64,000 bases of DNA, taken from NCBI RefSeq assembly GCF_011090385.1, contig NZ_SEWW01000004.1, positions 1 to 64,000 of the forward strand, in the 5' to 3' direction. Position 1 is the stretch's first letter, and each line of letters starts with the position of its first letter. Of this stretch, positions 9,207 through 18,878 are shown piece by piece. The position numbers were made by a program, and so were the translations under genes. The notes beneath the pieces are model-generated. The model worked only from the letters and a program-made list of their open reading frames with translations. It searched no databases and was not told the DNA's origin. The stretch comes from Aquirufa beregesia. GTDB lineage: Bacteria; Bacteroidota; Bacteroidia; Cytophagales; Spirosomataceae.

Positions 9207-10979
9207 CTAATCATAAAGTCCGAGAATCAATTTTTCATATCTAGATACAATCACCTTGCGCTTTAATTTCAAGGTTGGGGTTAATTCTCCATCTGAAATT
9301 GTAAATAATCTTGGTAATAAGACAAATTTCTTAACTTGCTCATAACGTGCCACTGATGCCATGGTCATTAAGACCTCCTCATTTATTTTTTCAATTACTT
9401 TGGGGTGTGCTATCATCTCTTCTGGGGTACTAAGCACAATATCCTGTTGTTTACACCAAACTTGAAGCACATTAAATTCGGGAATAATGAGCGCCGATGG
9501 AAATTTTTGTCCTTCTCCCACCACCATACATTGTTCGATAAATGTTGATTCTTTTAATTTATTTTCAACCAATTGTGGGGCAACATATTTACCTCCTGAG
9601 GTTTTAAAAATCTCTTTTTTGCGATCGGTGATTTTTAAATATTTCCCCTCCACTAATTCTCCTATATCTCCCGTATGAAACCAGCCCTCCGGGTCAATTG
9701 CCTCAGCTGTAGCTATAGGGTTATTATAATATCCCGGCATAACAGAATCTCCTTTTACACATATTTCTCCGTCTTCTGCTATTTTTAATTGGACACAATC
9801 TAATAAAGTTCCCACACAACCTACTTTAAAATCAGGAGGACATATTTTCGATACCGATATCACAGGTGACGTCTCTGTTAAACCATAGCCTTCCGCAATG
9901 GGAATATTGGCCGCCCAAAAAATGCGGGATAAGCGTGGCTGAAGTGCTGCAGACCCAGAAGTAATCGCTCGGATGTTTCCTCCCAATGCTTCCTGCCATT
10001 TACTGAATATCAATTTCCTAAATATGGCCAATTTGATGCTATCCCAAAATCCCAATTTTTCCATGGGATCATATTTCAATCCAAAGTCAATGGCCGCAAA
10101 AAACAACTTCCTCTTAATACCCGTTAACTCATTTCCTTTAGCCAATACTTTATCATATACTTTTTCTAAAAGCCGTGGAACGGTGGCAAACATAGCTGGT
10201 TTGACCTCTTTGATATTTTCGGCTACTGTATCTAAATTTTCAGCATAATAGATGGAAACACCATAAAAAACATATAGATAAATATTGGTCCGCTCATAAA
10301 TATGGCACATAGGTAGAAAACTCAATACCTTATCTCGAGAATTGATTTGAAAAAAATCTCCTCGATCCAAGGCCTTCACATTACTGATAATGTTATGATG
10401 GGTCAACATGACACCCTTAGGTCTACCTGTTGTTCCCGAAGTGTATATTAAGGTAAGCAAGTCATGAGCTTGAACCGATGCTTTGATGGGCTCTAATACG
10501 CTGGCATCTTTACCTTGCCCTAATTCCTTTACTTCCGTCCATAAGTTAGCACCAGCAATAGGCTCAAAGGTATAAATGGATTTAATCCTTGCATTTCCTT
10601 TGACTGCTTCTTTGGTTTTTAAATAGAGCTCTTCATTTTCTGCAAATATAAATTCAACTCCTGAGTCTTCAAAAATGAAAGCATAATCCTCTACCGTAAT
10701 GGTGGGATATAAAGGAACAGTTACGGCTCCAAGCACTTGAACAGCAAAGTCAACGAAATTCCATTCGGGTCTGTTGGTAGAAATGATGGCTATTTTATCC
10801 CCTGGTTTGATACCTAAATTTAGCAAACCTAATGCCAACTGTTCTATCGTTTCTAAGGTATCCGTATTAGAATAATTTTTCCAGTAACCATCTTCTTTCT
10901 TATTAAATAAATCTGACTTATGGAAAGTTTTATATACGTCTAATAAATCAAATACACGTGTTAATGAAGCATGTTTCAT
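9207..10979 (-). CDS. long-chain acyl-CoA synthetase (AMP-binding)
   Basis: 590 residues with the adenylate-forming signatures in order: P-loop-like LIYTSGTTGRPKGVMLTHHN, GYGLTETSP, GWFHTGDIG and DRKKEIFKTSGGKYVAPQ. The length and C-terminal layout match the FadD15-like long-chain group. It activates fatty acids to acyl-CoA through an acyl-adenylate, for lipid synthesis or beta-oxidation. It stands alone, 115 bases from gmd. A TAACTTTG element at 11005-11012 on the minus strand probably drives it. Confidence 0.92.
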   Translation of the reverse strand: MKHASLTRVFDLLDVYKTFHKSDLFNKKEDGYWKNYSNTDTLETIEQLALGLLNLGIKPGDKIAIISTNRPEWNFVDFAVQVLGAVTVPLYPTITVEDYAFIFEDSGVEFIFAENEELYLKTKEAVKGNARIKSIYTFEPIAGANLWTEVKELGQGKDASVLEPIKASVQAHDLLTLIYTSGTTGRPKGVMLTHHNIISNVKALDRGDFFQINSRDKVLSFLPMCHIYERTNIYLYVFYGVSIYYAENLDTVAENIKEVKPAMFATVPRLLEKVYDKVLAKGNELTGIKRKLFFAAIDFGLKYDPMEKLGFWDSIKLAIFRKLIFSKWQEALGGNIRAITSGSAALQPRLSRIFWAANIPIAEGYGLTETSPVISVSKICPPDFKVGCVGTLLDCVQLKIAEDGEICVKGDSVMPGYYNNPIATAEAIDPEGWFHTGDIGELVEGKYLKITDRKKEIFKTSGGKYVAPQLVENKLKESTFIEQCMVVGEGQKFPSALIIPEFNVLQVWCKQQDIVLSTPEEMIAHPKVIEKINEEVLMTMASVARYEQVKKFVLLPRLFTISDGELTPTLKLKRKVIVSRYEKLILGLYD

Positions 10980-11071: not shown

Positions 11072-12586
11072 CTAGGGAATAGTTAAACTTCTTCTTATTT
11101 CTTGTAAATAAATACTACTCGGATATTTAGTAACGAATTGTAAGCCTAAATCCTTATCCTTATAATCCGTTAATTGCAAATACTGATATAGAGCATCATC
11201 GCCATAAATATCTTGGTCAAAACGATCATAAATATCTTTAAAGAGAACTTTCGCTTGTTCTATCTGCTTTTTTTCTAAAGCCTTTTGTGCCATTAAATAC
11301 AAGATATCATCTTCTAAACTCTGGCCTTTTTGGCTTTTGAACAATTGATCCAATGCCAGATCAGCATCTTGTACTTTCTTTTGTTCATAGAGCCACTGAA
11401 TAGTTGCAAATGATTTTAATGCAGTTTCTAAGGTATCTATTCCTGTATTATCTTCTATAACCCAACTCAAATGCAAGGCATCATTGGCGATTTCCTTTTG
11501 TGTACTTTGTTTCAATACATCAAAATTGGCTTTCGCTAATTCAAAGTCGCCTGTATAATAATAAAGTTTACCTGTCTTTAATTTAGCTTCATAGGCTATC
11601 GGTGAGTCCTTTACCAATTTCTCCACTTGAGCGTATTGAATTAAAGCATCGTATTTTCTACCAGCATACAAATACACATCTCCCAACTCCAATTTCATCT
11701 GTGCTTGTAAGTTGATATTAAACTCTGATAACTCGATCCCTTTCTGATATACTTTTTCGGCTGAATCCAATTGATTTAATTGATACATAAATATCCTGGC
11801 TTCTGATAAATACGTCTCTGCAGTACCAGCATTGTTTCCTCGATCTTTTCTTAATTCACGATAGGATTGAATCAAATTAGAAAACTCCGTTTTCTCAATC
11901 ACCATCTTATTTTGAATGCTTTGCTCTTGAGAAGCTAGTAATAATTGCTTCCAATTTATTCGTTGCGAAGAACGAGGATATGTTTTAATCAAATAATCAA
12001 ATATCTGATTGACCAAAGGCCATTGTTGACGCTGAAAACTGGCTATTCCAAAATCATTCACTTCCTTTCCTCCCGATTTAAATCGAATATCCAATGCCTT
12101 TCTTTGCATCCAAACCTTCTCCCATTGTTGATTCAATGCATACCAATGAATGATGAGTTCGACCGGATTGGCTTGTTCAGGTGTAGCCTGAATCAAAGAA
12201 ACTAGCATTTGCTCTACTTCCCGATTGGCTATTCCCTGGTCTTTTAAACCAATCAACCAATCTTTAGTCACTTCTAAGCCCTGGGTGTTGATTAACTTAT
12301 CCACAATTTGTCCACAATACTTAATCCATAGCGGTGCTAAATTTTCTTTAAGTACTTCATTAAATGAATAAAATGTTAAAAAAGAACCATTATTAATGTT
12401 TTTTATGAATAATTCATCTAACTGCTTAGTCCTTTTTTTCTCTTTTTTAATTTTTACAATTTGATGTAATCTGTCTACAAATAAAGAATCGGGACTTTTA
12501 ATGAAAGCATTAGCCTGAATAGGAAGTCCATAACCTATCAGAAGGAATACGAGAAATAAATAAGATTTAGAAAATGTTTTCCACAT
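11072..12586 (-). CDS. exported tetratricopeptide-repeat protein
   Basis: 504 residues with an N-terminal signal peptide (about 8-27, ending QANA). The body is almost wholly helical, with TPR-like pairs (for example QLDSAEKVYQKGIEL, AGRKYDALIQYAQVEKL, YYYTGDFELAKANFDVL, KKQIEQAKVLFKDIYDRF). TPR proteins act as scaffolds; no catalytic motif is visible and the specific role is unknown. Its start codon overlaps a DnaA-box-like TTTTCCACA, and an exact DnaA box lies inside the gene (12297-12305), so it forms the left flank of the putative replication origin. Confidence 0.75.
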   Translation of the reverse strand: MWKTFSKSYLFLVFLLIGYGLPIQANAFIKSPDSLFVDRLHQIVKIKKEKKRTKQLDELFIKNINNGSFLTFYSFNEVLKENLAPLWIKYCGQIVDKLINTQGLEVTKDWLIGLKDQGIANREVEQMLVSLIQATPEQANPVELIIHWYALNQQWEKVWMQRKALDIRFKSGGKEVNDFGIASFQRQQWPLVNQIFDYLIKTYPRSSQRINWKQLLLASQEQSIQNKMVIEKTEFSNLIQSYRELRKDRGNNAGTAETYLSEARIFMYQLNQLDSAEKVYQKGIELSEFNINLQAQMKLELGDVYLYAGRKYDALIQYAQVEKLVKDSPIAYEAKLKTGKLYYYTGDFELAKANFDVLKQSTQKEIANDALHLSWVIEDNTGIDTLETALKSFATIQWLYEQKKVQDADLALDQLFKSQKGQSLEDDILYLMAQKALEKKQIEQAKVLFKDIYDRFDQDIYGDDALYQYLQLTDYKDKDLGLQFVTKYPSSIYLQEIRRSLTIP

Positions 12587-12881
12587 GACTTATTTAAAAA
12601 AAATAAAATTTATATAAATCTCTTTTTTGTTTCTTATTGTTATTCAATGTGGATAAGTGGATAAGCGTATTTTTGTTTTATAACTATCTGATAATAAATA
12701 GTTTAAATATTTCATAGTTAAGTATTATTTGTAGATAAGTTTCAAATATACTGTGGATAGTTTTGAAAAATTGTCCATATCTTTTCTCCCAAAATATCTT
12801 TCCACAATTTCCACATGGATTGTTCACTCTTTGGAATGCTTATGAACATGTTATCCACATTATTTTTGGGTATTTATCAAC
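12297..12881. other. putative chromosomal replication origin (oriC)
   Basis: The core is the AT-rich gene-free gap 12587-12859. Exact DnaA boxes TTATCCACA lie at 12297-12305 (plus, inside the TPR gene), 12648-12656 (minus) and 12851-12859 (plus). One-mismatch versions are at 12308-12316, 12656-12664, 12730-12738, 12752-12760 and 12873-12881; TTTTCCACA at 12577-12585 fits TTWTNCACA, and two looser copies lie at 12798-12815. Stretches of nearly pure A/T (12597-12647, 12690-12735) could be the unwinding element. Base bias supports a replication switch: by hand I count 33 G and 53 C in 10021-10260 but 59 G and 41 C in 16021-16260, both inside minus-strand genes. Two parS sites lie nearby. No dnaA gene adjoins. 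Confidence 0.8.
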
Positions 12882-14503
12882 AAATCAGAAATTTGAAAAT
12901 TGGCTTTTAATTTGATTTTACCTTCAAAGAAATATACGGGTTCTGACTTTTTCCTCAGTTTAAAATTACCAATATCCCAGTAACCATTATTATTTAGGTC
13001 AGCAATAACGCGTATTTGATACAGCCCAGGTTCCACGTGGATAAATTCAAAGCGTTTGCTTGTTTTAACGGTCATGTAAGGCTCAAATGTATCGGCTTTT
13101 ATCAATTCTACGATAAAGTGATTTGTAGGCCTTTGGCTGGTTATTTGGCCATCTATACTACCATAATTTTCTACGTCTTGCCATTCCATCTTTTGCATGT
13201 ATGCTTGACTAGAATCAGCCTCTACTCCAACAAATGCATTTTTATTGATGCTCAATTCGAATTTAGTTCTGCTGGGTAAATAGGCATTTTTAATGGTTAA
13301 ACTATTTTGGAATTGATTCCATTGAAAAGCTTGATCAGGTAAACTGTGGATTTCTCCTTCTTCTGTTTTAAATAGAATTCCTGTGGATGCCCATTGCTGA
13401 ACGGGTTTTGTAAATTTTATTTGTAGGGAATCAGAAGGAGAAAGTAATTTTCCTGGTCCCGGTCTTACTTCAAAGTTTAGATCTAGCTTTTGAATTTTTT
13501 CTTTTTTAGCTAATTCTCTAAATTTTATTTTAAGGGGTATTTGATACTTTCTATCCAAAGAATCCGTCATGGTAGCTTGAACAAAGATGGTGTCTGTGCT
13601 ATTTTGGTTCAATACATAGAATCGAAGGTTTTTGTTGTCTTCCTGTTGAAAATATAATTGTGCCTTAGGAGTATTTTGTAAAACAAGCGATTTAATTCCC
13701 CTGTTGAATTCATACAAAACTGTTTTGGCAGAAGCTGTTGTTTTACTTAGTTTCAATGAATCTTGATTTTGTAAACTAATAGCAAAATGTTGTTCTTGAT
13801 TTTTACTTAAATCAATATACTTGTCGGAAATAAAATCCACCGATTCTTTATTCGAGTTATAGAGCAAATTATTATTGATGTCGTTAAAAGCCGCCATATA
13901 ATATTTTCCTTTAGCCAAGTTTTCTAATAGGTAGTTTCCTGATGTGTCTGTTTTAACGAAATAGTAGGGTTTCGTTGTATGAATGGACAGGGAATCGTTC
14001 CATGGATATAGGGCGACTAATATATTTTCGGGATGTTTTTGCGTCAGCAATTGCTTTACATTTCCTTTGATTTGAAGGGAGTCAATATCATTGGATGTAC
14101 TAAATACTAATTTGATATTTTTACCTACATTTCTTTCTGATGCATCTTCAATGGCATTCCTAAAATTAAATGTATAGGTTGTATTATCCTTCAGGGTACT
14201 ATCCAATAAAATACTAAGCCCTTGAGGTCTAATTTTTGTTTGATAAGTTCCTACCGATGGAGTAATTAATAGTTCTTGGCTTAAATTTCGGATACCTACA
14301 TATTCGTTGAAAGTAAGTTCTATTTTTTTCCCTTTAAAATTTCGGCTTTTATTTAAGGGAATGGATTCACTGATTTTGGGTGCTAGTGTATCTTTTTTGC
14401 CTCCTGGAGGGTTAGCCATTTGGGCACAACTTTGTAGAATCAGGATGATAAACAATCCAGACAGAAGAGTAAAAAGAGCTACATTTTTAAGCCTACTGAG
14501 CAT
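12860..14503 (-). CDS. Ig-like domain lipoprotein
   Basis: 547 residues. A lipoprotein signal is visible (hydrophobic stretch, then LQSCAQ, lipid on the Cys near residue 27), so it should be anchored in the outer membrane or periplasm. After the NPPGGKKDTLAP start of the mature part comes an Ig-like domain (ISESIPLNKS, ELTFNEYV, TYTFNFRNAIEDASERN). A carboxypeptidase-regulatory-like segment follows (TSGNYLLENLAKGKYYMAAFNDINNN), then further beta-rich repeats and a closing GLYQIRVIADLNNNGYWDIGNF. I recognise this as a conserved Bacteroidota family without assigned function. Its stop codon abuts an exact DnaA box, so it is the right flank of the putative origin. It is transcribed towards the origin. 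Confidence 0.78.
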   Translation of the reverse strand: MLSRLKNVALFTLLSGLFIILILQSCAQMANPPGGKKDTLAPKISESIPLNKSRNFKGKKIELTFNEYVGIRNLSQELLITPSVGTYQTKIRPQGLSILLDSTLKDNTTYTFNFRNAIEDASERNVGKNIKLVFSTSNDIDSLQIKGNVKQLLTQKHPENILVALYPWNDSLSIHTTKPYYFVKTDTSGNYLLENLAKGKYYMAAFNDINNNLLYNSNKESVDFISDKYIDLSKNQEQHFAISLQNQDSLKLSKTTASAKTVLYEFNRGIKSLVLQNTPKAQLYFQQEDNKNLRFYVLNQNSTDTIFVQATMTDSLDRKYQIPLKIKFRELAKKEKIQKLDLNFEVRPGPGKLLSPSDSLQIKFTKPVQQWASTGILFKTEEGEIHSLPDQAFQWNQFQNSLTIKNAYLPSRTKFELSINKNAFVGVEADSSQAYMQKMEWQDVENYGSIDGQITSQRPTNHFIVELIKADTFEPYMTVKTSKRFEFIHVEPGLYQIRVIADLNNNGYWDIGNFKLRKKSEPVYFFEGKIKLKANFQISDLLINTQK

Positions 14504-15380
14504 GTTCGAAGATATATAAATTACTAGAATAATTGCCTTTTCCTAGCCAGGCTTTGATATTAGAAAGCAGACCAATGATAAAGGACAAAATGACTTTTTT
14601 AGAACCACTTTGGTATTCATGACTCATTAGCGAAATGTAAAAGCTATCAAATACCAATCCTTTTTTTTCTTTTAGCGAGAATCCATATTGCTTAGCAATG
14701 GCTTGTATGGTTTCCGGAGTAAAATGATAGATATGCCTTGGGACATCATATGCTGCCCAATATTCTTGAAAGTAGTGAGCATCATAGCTGTTGTTATTGG
14801 GTAAAGCCAATAACAATTTACCCGTAGGTGATAAGTTCTTTTTAAAGAAGGCGAAGTATTCATGTAATTCATATACATGTTCCAATACATGCCAAAGACT
14901 AATGACTTGAAATGTTTCTGACGAGGGAATACTGCTTAGGTGGGGATATATTGTTTTGCCAGTTAATTGGGCGGCCTTTTGAGCTGTATTTGGGTCCAGC
15001 TCCATGCCATGAATATTCCATCCTCTACTTTGACAAGCTTGCAGAAAATGACCTGTTCCACAGCCAATATCTAAGATGTTTTTGGTTCCCTTTTTTTCAG
15101 GCTCTATCCAGTAGGTTTTTTGTCGAAGGGTGATATTTCTTACCCGCTGGTACAGTTTGTTAATGAACCCTTTTTCTGTATTACTATGGGAAATATAATT
15201 TTCGGATTTGTAATAGGGACCCGCTTCATCTGCTTTGGGTCTTGGATTCGTGAAGCGTAAATGGCAGCTTTGACATTCCACAATTTGGAATGTTTGATGC
15301 GATACGGTATAATCTTTGGCACTCAGAATGAGATTAAATGCTTTGTTTGAGCAAGCCGGACATTCTTTTAATTCTTCCAT
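14493..15380 (-). CDS. class I SAM-dependent methyltransferase with N-terminal zinc-ribbon
   Basis: 295 residues. Two CxxC pairs near the start (ECPACSNK, ECQSCHLRF) look like a zinc ribbon. The SAM-binding motif NILDIGCGTGHFL and later ISLWHVLEHV mark a Rossmann methyltransferase. The substrate is unknown; relatives modify sugars, quinones or small molecules. It overlaps the lipoprotein gene by 11 bases and starts 2 bases after the mnmG stop, so mnmG, this gene and the lipoprotein gene are probably co-transcribed. Confidence 0.82.
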   Translation of the reverse strand: MEELKECPACSNKAFNLILSAKDYTVSHQTFQIVECQSCHLRFTNPRPKADEAGPYYKSENYISHSNTEKGFINKLYQRVRNITLRQKTYWIEPEKKGTKNILDIGCGTGHFLQACQSRGWNIHGMELDPNTAQKAAQLTGKTIYPHLSSIPSSETFQVISLWHVLEHVYELHEYFAFFKKNLSPTGKLLLALPNNNSYDAHYFQEYWAAYDVPRHIYHFTPETIQAIAKQYGFSLKEKKGLVFDSFYISLMSHEYQSGSKKVILSFIIGLLSNIKAWLGKGNYSSNLYIFEHAQ

Positions 15381-15382
15381 AA

Positions 15383-17245
15383 TTAGCGACCCATGAATAA
15401 AAGTAGAATGGATACATCGGATGCAGAAACTCCTGATATTCTGCTAGCCTGACCAATGGTTTGTGGTCGGATGGATTTTAGTTTAATTCTAGATTCTGTT
15501 GACAGCGTTTTAATTTTGTCGTAGTCAAATGTTTCTGGAATTTGAAGATCTTCCATCGTTTTCATTTTATCGACCATCAGTCTTTCTTTCTCTATATAGC
15601 TTTCGTACTTAACAATGATTTCTGCTTGTTCAATGACCTCTTGGGAATAGACATCTTGAAGGTGCTGAATCAATGGATGTTTTAATAAAGCGGAGAAACT
15701 TAAGTCGGAACGTTTCAGCAAATTGACAATGGGTGTTCCTTCCCGGAGGCTTGAGCTACCCTGGTTTTCTAGCCAAGCATTCATCTCATCTGGCTTTACT
15801 TTGCTTGTTTTAATATGGTCAAGAAGCTGGGTTACATCACGTTGTTTTTGTTGGAATTTATCCATCCGTTTTTTTGTTGCTAGCCCTAATTCATAACCCT
15901 TAGCTGTTAACCTTTCATCGGCATTATCTTGTCTCAAAAGCGTTCTAAATTCAGCCCTTGAAGTAAACATTCGGTATGGCTCATCTGTCCCTTTATTGAT
16001 TAGGTCATCGATCAATACTCCGATGTAGGCATCTGATCTGGATAGAGTGAAGGGGTCCATTTGTTGTGCTTTTTGGTGGGCATTGATTCCAGCCATGAGA
16101 CCCTGACAAGCGGCTTCTTCATAGCCTGTAGTTCCATTTATTTGACCAGCAAAAAATAGTCCTTGAACTAGCTTTGTTTCTAAGGTTGCTAGTAATTGAG
16201 TTGGAGGAAAGTAATCGTATTCAATGGCATAGCCTGGTCTGAAAAGTTTTGCTTTTTCAAAGCCCGGTATAAGCCGGATGGCCTCAAACTGTATTTCTTC
16301 TGGTAGTGATGTAGAGAATCCATTCACATAAATTTCTACGGTATTCCAGCCTTCTGGTTCTACAAATATTTGATGGCTGTCTTTATCGGCAAAGCGGTTA
16401 ATTTTATCTTCCACGGAAGGGCAATATCTTGGCCCAAGGCCTTTAATTCTACCCGCAAACATGGGGGATTTATCAAAGCCTTTTCTTAGTACTTCGTGTA
16501 CTTTGGTATTGGTATGAGTAATCCAGCAAGATCGTTGTTCTTGTATTGGGCTTTCTGTCAAGTAGGAAAAACTACTAGGATTTTCATCGCCCTTTTGTTC
16601 TTCCATAGCGGAATAATCAAGGCTTCTTCCATCTACTCTTGGGGGGGTACCTGTCTTCATTCTGCCGGATTCAAAGCCTACTTGAACTAATTGTTCGGTT
16701 AGTCCTTGAACCATAGGTTCGGCCATCCTTCCTCCTCCAAAATGCTTCTCTCCAATGTGGATTAAACCATTTAAAAAGGTGCCATTGGTGAGTACTACAG
16801 TGCGGGCTTTGAACTCAATTCCCATGCGAGTTATGACACCGTAGACTTCATTTTTTTTGATGAGTAATTGTTGTACTGAATCTTGCCAAAAATCTACTAG
16901 AGGGTTTTGTTCCAATACCATTCTCCATTCTTCTGCAAATCGCATTCGGTCCGACTGGCACCTTGGGGACCACATGGCTGGACCTTTTGAGCGGTTCAGC
17001 ATGCGAAACTGAATCATTGTTTTGTCTGAAATCAGACCAGACATTCCTCCAAGCGCATCTATTTCTCGTACAATTTGACCTTTGGCCACCCCGCCCATGG
17101 CAGGATTGCAAGACATTTGTGCGATGGTTTGCATATTCATGGTGATGAGCAAAACGCTCGACCCCATTTGAGCTGCAGCATGTGCTGCTTCACAACCGGC
17201 ATGCCCCGCTCCTACTACAATTACATCGTATGCTTGTTGTTGCAT
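15383..17245 (-). CDS. mnmG: tRNA uridine-5-carboxymethylaminomethyl modification enzyme MnmG (GidA)
   Basis: 620 residues, normal length. It shows the FAD-binding dinucleotide motif VVGAGHAGCEAAHAAA at the N-terminus, then CNPAMGGVAKG, TGTPPRVDGRS, and GTTGYEEAACQGLMAG with the conserved cysteine. With MnmE it modifies the wobble uridine of several tRNAs. In many bacteria (for example enterobacteria) this gene lies beside oriC, which fits the putative origin 2.5 kb away. A perfect parS sits 10 bases upstream of its start codon. Confidence 0.97.
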   Translation of the reverse strand: MQQQAYDVIVVGAGHAGCEAAHAAAQMGSSVLLITMNMQTIAQMSCNPAMGGVAKGQIVREIDALGGMSGLISDKTMIQFRMLNRSKGPAMWSPRCQSDRMRFAEEWRMVLEQNPLVDFWQDSVQQLLIKKNEVYGVITRMGIEFKARTVVLTNGTFLNGLIHIGEKHFGGGRMAEPMVQGLTEQLVQVGFESGRMKTGTPPRVDGRSLDYSAMEEQKGDENPSSFSYLTESPIQEQRSCWITHTNTKVHEVLRKGFDKSPMFAGRIKGLGPRYCPSVEDKINRFADKDSHQIFVEPEGWNTVEIYVNGFSTSLPEEIQFEAIRLIPGFEKAKLFRPGYAIEYDYFPPTQLLATLETKLVQGLFFAGQINGTTGYEEAACQGLMAGINAHQKAQQMDPFTLSRSDAYIGVLIDDLINKGTDEPYRMFTSRAEFRTLLRQDNADERLTAKGYELGLATKKRMDKFQQKQRDVTQLLDHIKTSKVKPDEMNAWLENQGSSSLREGTPIVNLLKRSDLSFSALLKHPLIQHLQDVYSQEVIEQAEIIVKYESYIEKERLMVDKMKTMEDLQIPETFDYDKIKTLSTESRIKLKSIRPQTIGQASRISGVSASDVSILLLFMGR

Positions 17246-17254
17246 TTTCTATTT

Positions 17255-17270
17255 TGTTTCACGTGAAACA
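17255..17270. promoter_or_regulatory. parS site (ParB-binding palindrome)
   Basis: The sequence TGTTTCACGTGAAACA is a perfect 16-bp palindrome identical to the widely conserved chromosomal parS consensus. It occupies the 26-base gap between the ybeY stop and the mnmG start. ParB loads here to form the partition complex, typically near oriC. A second identical copy is at 18839-18854. Confidence 0.93.
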
Positions 17271-18140: not shown

Positions 18141-18878
18141 ATGCTGAATAAAGAAGTTCAATTTGTTGATATTGGATTAGCGCCATATCAAGAAACATGG
18201 GATTTGCAGGAAATGCTGTTGAATCATATTGCTCAAATTAAATTGAGCAATCGTAGGGAGGCTAAAGCCGAGGAAACCCCTAATTTTCTGCTTTTCTGTG
18301 AGCATCCCCATGTGTATACTTTGGGTAAGAGCGGGGATGAATCCCATTTGTTGATGCAGGAGCCATTCTTAGCCAGTATTGGGGCTAGCTTTTATCGGAT
18401 TAATCGGGGCGGCGACATTACCTATCATGGCCCAGGTCAACTGGTGGGTTATCCTATTTTGGATTTGGAGAATTTCTATACAGACATCCATTTGTATCTA
18501 AGGATGTTGGAAGAAGCGATCATATTGACTTGTCAAGATTATGGTTTGATTGCTGGCAGAATAGATGGCTTAACAGGTGTTTGGATTAACCCAGAGTCAG
18601 ATAATGCTCGAAAAATATGTGCATTGGGCGTAAAAGCTTCGCGCTGGATTAGTATGCACGGCTTTGCTTTGAATGTAAACACGGATTTAACGTATTTCTC
18701 ACACATTGTTCCTTGTGGCATTGCAACCAGAGGGGTGACCTCTTTACAACAAGAATTGGGCCGAGAAATGGATATAAATGAGGTTAAGTCCAGCGTTTTG
18801 GGACATTTAACTCAGTTATTTGAATGGAAATTAAAACATGTTTCACGTGAAACATTAACCCTAACCCTAAATCCATAA
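18141..18878 (+). CDS. lipB: octanoyl-[acyl-carrier protein] transferase (lipoate biosynthesis)
   Basis: 245 residues. Family signatures: EHPHVYTLGKSG (54-64), RGGDITYHGPGQLVGYPILDL (89-109), catalytic K165 in GVKASRWISMHGFALNV and catalytic C192 in HIVPCGI. LipB moves octanoyl from ACP to lipoyl domains, the first step of lipoate assembly. The final codons (HVSRET) are encoded by a perfect parS, so the C-terminus is partly fixed by the DNA site. The 3-kb minus block ends here: transcription diverges from yraN. Confidence 0.95.
   Translation: MLNKEVQFVDIGLAPYQETWDLQEMLLNHIAQIKLSNRREAKAEETPNFLLFCEHPHVYTLGKSGDESHLLMQEPFLASIGASFYRINRGGDITYHGPGQLVGYPILDLENFYTDIHLYLRMLEEAIILTCQDYGLIAGRIDGLTGVWINPESDNARKICALGVKASRWISMHGFALNVNTDLTYFSHIVPCGIATRGVTSLQQELGREMDINEVKSSVLGHLTQLFEWKLKHVSRETLTLTLNP
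18839..18854. promoter_or_regulatory. parS site inside the lipB coding region
   Basis: TGTTTCACGTGAAACA again, identical to the site at 17255. It lies wholly inside lipB, 24 bases before its end, and reads CAT-GTT-TCA-CGT-GAA-ACA in frame. Two perfect copies within 1.6 kb are far beyond chance expectation for a 16-mer. Confidence 0.92.

Follow-up and report, generated by a model that had tools for sequence, protein, structure and literature searches.

The window, the 64,000-nucleotide stretch of Aquirufa beregesia DNA analysed here, occupies the left end of contig C25, which is 327,821 bp long, in a draft assembly of 3,231,072 bp and 72 unordered contigs. The window's own genome is G000; other G handles denote related genomes and L handles extracted loci. 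Four minus-strand genes surround a short intergenic gap: mnmG (gidA), a methyltransferase gene and a gene encoding a Big_5 (Ig-like) domain protein lie on one side, and a gene for a 504-residue protein, provisionally labelled TPR, on the other. The Big_5 protein is 80-90% identical to its counterparts in A. aurantiipilula, A. ecclesiirivi and A. rosea, which places this freshwater bacterium in or very near Aquirufa (Bacteroidota, Cytophagales). Beyond mnmG are two exact parS sites, TGTTTCACGTGAAACA, one of them within an open reading frame (18141-18878) having an LplA-B_cat domain (lipB-like). These predicted ParB sites lie 4.4 and 6.0 kb from a cluster of DnaA boxes that spans the gap, and the search, which allowed up to two mismatches, found the parS sequence nowhere else in the 3.23 Mb assembly. 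An earlier note on this DNA had placed two parS sites 4-6 kb away and mnmG close by, and both statements hold.

At the extreme left of C25, the open reading frame 45-821 appears to encode a C-terminal serine recombinase fragment; its only Pfam match is below threshold and is to another family. A mobile element at this frame may account for the break of C25 12 kb from the cluster.

Table 1. Features of the candidate origin region and of the related loci on contig C10. Positions are those of the window unless a contig is named.
Feature	Position	Strand	Remarks
504-aa protein gene	11072..12586	-	no Pfam match; first part holds three boxes
Candidate oriC	12297..12882	.	9 DnaA boxes (3 exact, 6 one-mismatch)
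Intergenic AT-rich core	12587..12859	.	273 bases, 75.8% A+T
DnaA-trio-like NAN triplets	12631..12645	-	five; candidate unwinding start, 2 bases 3' of tandem boxes on the box strand
Tandem DnaA boxes TTATCCACTTATCCACA	12648..12664	-	two overlapping boxes, 17-mer
Big_5 (Ig-like) domain protein gene	12860..14503	-	conserved neighbour across gap
Methyltransferase gene	14493..15380	-	
mnmG (gidA)	15383..17245	-	
parS	17255..17270	.	exact
parS	18839..18854	.	exact; within lipB-like frame
recA	C10:171,948-173,009		named from its sequence
dnaA	C10:173,081-174,451		one DnaA above TIGR00362 cut-off in genome
parA	C10:182,139-182,918		named from its sequence
parB	C10:182,932-183,852		TIGR00180; two other genome matches below cut-off
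Second box cluster	C10:598205-598390 (L028:10205-10390)		five boxes, three exact

DnaA boxes and the AT-rich gap

The earlier note had reported three exact and at least five one-mismatch DnaA boxes around a 273-base AT-rich gap. Exact TTATCCACA boxes were found at 12297(+), 12648(-) and 12851(+), and six one-mismatch boxes lie at 12308, 12577, 12656, 12730, 12752 and 12874, giving nine in all; the gap has the length reported. Its A+T content compares with 60.6% for the window, in which only 0.36% of 273-base stretches are as AT-rich or more so. By composition this sequence beside the boxes is the predicted unwinding region of an oriC.

The box density is above chance, as expected of an origin. 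At the density of the sampled own sequence (282 boxes in 712 kb) only 0.23 boxes would be expected in 12297-12882, and 1000 dinucleotide shuffles gave a mean of 0.22 and a maximum of four, none attaining nine. Among 36 own stretches (712 kb) the cluster has the top density, nine boxes per 600 bp, the runner-up having five. A chance accumulation in AT-rich DNA might be argued from the composition of the gap and from the one in 500 permuted 9-mers that attained nine matches in the cluster stretch. However, the shuffles and the box positions and strands, mostly conserved over 30 loci as described below, contradict this explanation, to which we give practically no weight.

The exact 17-mer TTATCCACTTATCCACA, a tandem pair of overlapping boxes, is present as a single copy per genome, always in the gap, in all six genomes compared (the window's and five relatives). 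On the strand of these boxes two bases are followed by GAATAACAATAAGAA, which reads as five NAN triplets, and this block is conserved in the six-genome alignment. The published basal unwinding rule calls for a DnaA box, a spacer of 0-16 bp and at least three NAN triplets (PMC8287927). The window satisfies this search rule with its tandem boxes, 2-base spacer and five triplets. It differs in that its triplets are all NAA, whereas the most frequent trio in that source is 3'-GAT-5', and in that the likeness here is one of sequence alone. A stricter pattern of tandem boxes plus at least four triplets was found in 27 of 51 loci, these being 23 of the 30 genus loci, L206, L207, L166 and one Dyadobacter match outside the gap. 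The pattern was absent from the other seven genus loci and from the gap in 12/12 Dyadobacter loci. Because AT-rich DNA readily yields NAN runs, the triplets support, rather than prove, a putative unwinding element at this place.

Conservation of the cluster and its neighbours

The Big_5 gene was found in 35 genus genomes, the window's included, from which 30 loci were extracted. In all 30 the 1.5 kb on the cluster side of the gene contains 8-14 boxes. Summed over the loci this is 334 boxes per 45 kb versus 17 per 45 kb on the other side, the side windows having been cut from the locus ends and overlapping the gene in four short loci (L054, L060, L063 and L074). The spacing and strand of the boxes are mostly preserved among loci whose proteins are only about 60% identical. 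We also analysed 36 of 41 database loci, some of which duplicate G genomes (L209, for example, is G033), leaving out L216, L235, L239, L240 and L243, which were partial matches or had short flanks. All 24 Aquirufa-clade and Dyadobacter loci had 9-14 boxes, the 12 Dyadobacter loci each having 9-13 per 1.5 kb. In 12/12 loci from other, more distant Bacteroidota the cluster was lacking after the Big_5 gene (0-2 boxes).

The three boxes at the start of the 504-residue protein gene suggest another explanation, that the cluster is a DnaA-controlled promoter or a titration or reactivation locus of the datA or DARS type, the true origin being elsewhere. Of the 12 Aquirufa-clade loci, however, eight showed no 504-residue protein gene, a ligase gene following directly, yet the cluster is retained. 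The cluster is therefore not merely the promoter of that gene.

Among eight genomes of other families, G040, G044 and G050 have the order ybeY, mnmG, methyltransferase, Big_5 gene, gap and 504-residue protein gene. G045 and G058 have the same order without the methyltransferase, only the Big_5 and 504-residue protein genes were seen in G041, and the order was not seen in G038 and G056. The best box counts per 600 bp in these genomes were 13 in G040 and G044, four in G038, three in G041 and G050, two in G045 and G058 and one in G056. Sites resembling parS with up to one mismatch were present in 43 of 59 genomes, that of the window included. In 35 of the 43 such a site shares a contig with the Big_5 gene, and by hand count 33 of these 35 have their closest site at a distance of 1.9-8.3 kb from it. 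That distance is 22.6 kb in G047 and 5 Mb in G040, although G040 has a two-mismatch parS palindrome adjoining mnmG.

Strand asymmetry and a second box cluster

The earlier note had called for a minimum of cumulative GC skew near 12.6 kb. Over positions 1-320000 of C25 the minimum is at 13257, as expected if oriC is here, and the curve then rises to +7275 at 308.7 kb. The hand counts of that note were reproduced exactly, with 33 G and 53 C in 10021-10260 and 59 G and 41 C in 16021-16260, both in minus-strand frames. Note that the left arm on this contig is merely 12.3 kb, and the minus side is thus short. Since gene orientation alone can move GC skew, a corrected measure was also used, the skew at third codon positions taken as the mean of the two gene orientations. 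It covered 66 own stretches from nine large contigs, some 1.3 Mb of the 3.23 Mb assembly. At the cluster, at the left end of C25, this measure changes sign from minus to plus; on C10 near 360 kb it changes the other way, in the sense of a terminus. Every stretch sampled was positive on C11, C22 and C30 and negative on C41, C63 and C72. Exceptions are C10:680001 and the last C25 stretch, which are opposite to their neighbours, and C52, two of whose three stretches are near zero. A search for dif with the E. coli sequence, in the 66 own and 20 G007 stretches, gave a best own match of 17/20 arm positions at about C10:73.7 kb, away from the skew switch.

In five of six relatives sampled the skew also changes around the gap, weakly in G020 and G013. 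Within 20-kb stretches the minimum and the cluster are 453-574 bp apart in G033, G021 and G016 (sampling further out was on the minus side only in G021 and G016). The weak skew of G020 and G013 has its minimum about 4.8-4.9 kb away on the mnmG side, and the minus side of G020 is near zero. The exception is G007, the sole single-contig genome of the genus in the set. On either side of its cluster the two closest stretches sampled have positive skew, and the minimum of its 20-kb stretch is 4.8 kb from the cluster, although the box cluster, parS and the neighbouring genes are all present. An inversion, a misassembly or decayed skew are possible causes. As a separate observation, sampled GC skew is positive over most of the G007 contig (C1, 2,505,188 bp), both sides of the origin cluster included; a clean whole-chromosome V, which had been expected from its 20 stretches, was not obtained.

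That box clusters occur outside oriC is shown by a second one on C10, which is a point for a datA- or DARS-like role of the cluster in the window. It sits between an HTH-domain gene and an operon of a PRA-PH-domain (MazG-like) protein, a response regulator and what we take to be a kinase. In the homologous region upstream, 3-5 boxes are present in 9/9 further genus genomes (G007 and eight others, of 33 having the gene) and none in the three other-family genomes looked at (of six having the gene). This putative regulatory cluster may titrate DnaA or place the operon under DnaA control. However, in none of the 10 genus genomes inspected does it exceed five boxes, and its 20-kb stretch and the sampled flanking stretches keep one skew sign. 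A datA or DARS locus would be a box cluster distant from the skew minimum, whereas the cluster in the window coincides with the skew minimum, with the tandem-box unit and with the sole parS sites found in the genome. We therefore regard a titration locus or regulated promoter with the origin elsewhere as very unlikely.

Position of dnaA, recA and parAB

The genome has a dnaA gene, on C10, where dnaA, parB and the genes that we take, from their sequences, to be recA and parA all lie within 12 kb (C10:165001-185000, L029). The four are also together in G033. The stretch of G018 stops inside parB and that of G021 inside parA, so that of these four stretches two include parB in full; in G007 dnaA and recA were seen, the parAB side being beyond the contig start.

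In bacteria dnaA usually adjoins oriC, according to Ori-Finder 2022 (PMC10225481), which would put the origin on C10 and make the cluster in the window a relic or secondary site. However, the 20 kb around dnaA holds a single one-mismatch box, and the skew sign is constant through the dnaA region, the terminus-sense switch being some 80-220 kb off in 4/4 Aquirufa genomes sampled. This alternative seems to us extremely improbable, more so than a titration locus. The reading of the earlier note, an oriC with dnaA elsewhere, is thus upheld by the box cluster, the skew minimum, the proximity of parS, conservation and the place of dnaA on C10. We conclude with confidence that 12297-12882 is the chromosomal oriC of an Aquirufa species, its sequence anatomy, conservation and strand composition being observed.

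Binding, unwinding and initiation at this oriC would then proceed as follows. DnaA made from the distant gene would bind the box cluster, and a DnaA filament would extend from the tandem pair onto the DnaA-trio-like triplets and the adjacent AT-rich stretch. The duplex would open there and two forks would depart in opposite directions, and ParB bound to the two parS sites would separate the new origins.

The design of this origin is ordinary. In Y. pestis, as in E. coli, oriC is flanked by gidA and mioC (Ori-Finder 2022, PMC10225481), and the Aquirufa origin shares with these the E. coli-consensus DnaA boxes, an AT-rich stretch and a nearby mnmG. It differs in being flanked by the Big_5 and 504-residue protein genes, mnmG being 2.5 kb off with two genes between. 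Remoteness from dnaA is also known elsewhere, as in Synechococcus lividus PCC 6715 (DoriC 10.0, PMC6323995). There, too, the box cluster is distant from dnaA, whereas in Aquirufa dnaA, recA and parAB are grouped on the terminus side. The literature matches listed, whose ranking followed general terms, included no publication about oriC in Aquirufa, Dyadobacter or Spirosoma, although such a publication or a DoriC entry may exist. The separation of sites and genes is moderately interesting and worth following.

The distance from dnaA to the terminus-sense switch is about 185 kb in the window's genome. G021 and G018 give 180-220 and 160-200 kb, respectively, and G033, with weak skew past the switch, gives 80-140 kb. 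On the 2,505,188-bp contig of G007, 1.24 Mb separate the cluster from dnaA, 99% of the maximum possible. Therefore, and unexpectedly, oriC and parS lie towards one pole in Aquirufa and dnaA, recA and parAB towards the other. Records of Bacteroidota genomes have been made to start at dnaA, as with Lutibacter profundi (PMC5219744). The G007 assembly starts at dnaA, and thus its record begins at the pole far from the origin cluster.

We had considered that dnaA might always be terminus-proximal across the order. This was dropped, as the distance from the Big_5 gene to dnaA, divided by half the genome, scatters from 0.23 to 0.99 in the 11 single-contig genomes of those searched: G007 0.99, G071 0.99, G063 0.97, G040 0.62, G045 0.46, G077 0.46, G113 0.42, G124 0.40, G120 0.38, G098 0.28 and G092 0.23. 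These fractions were worked by hand, with sizes rounded for eight genomes, and the Big_5 gene has been shown to mark the origin in only some of them. Given this scatter, the opposite-pole layout may be a single inherited accident rather than the result of selection. Separately, DnaA open frames of 640-699 residues were seen in genus g34 (G067, G080, G090, G099, G105, G111, G116, G121 and G140) and in G056. The profile match to these is split between N-terminal and later parts, which suggests a long linker insert.

For Aquirufa and Dyadobacter the series mnmG, methyltransferase, Big_5 gene and oriC provides a landmark by which assemblies can be oriented and growth rates taken from coverage. With sites and genes at opposite poles, late doubling of dnaA and parAB together with a titrating second cluster could make a new initiation depend on the last round having been completed, a reading that we consider doubtful. 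If it is true, dnaA and parAB would be doubled only late in the replication round, and the supply of initiator and partition proteins could act as a dosage brake. The separation of dnaA-recA-parAB from oriC-parS offers a natural test of whether the position of the initiator gene affects replication timing.
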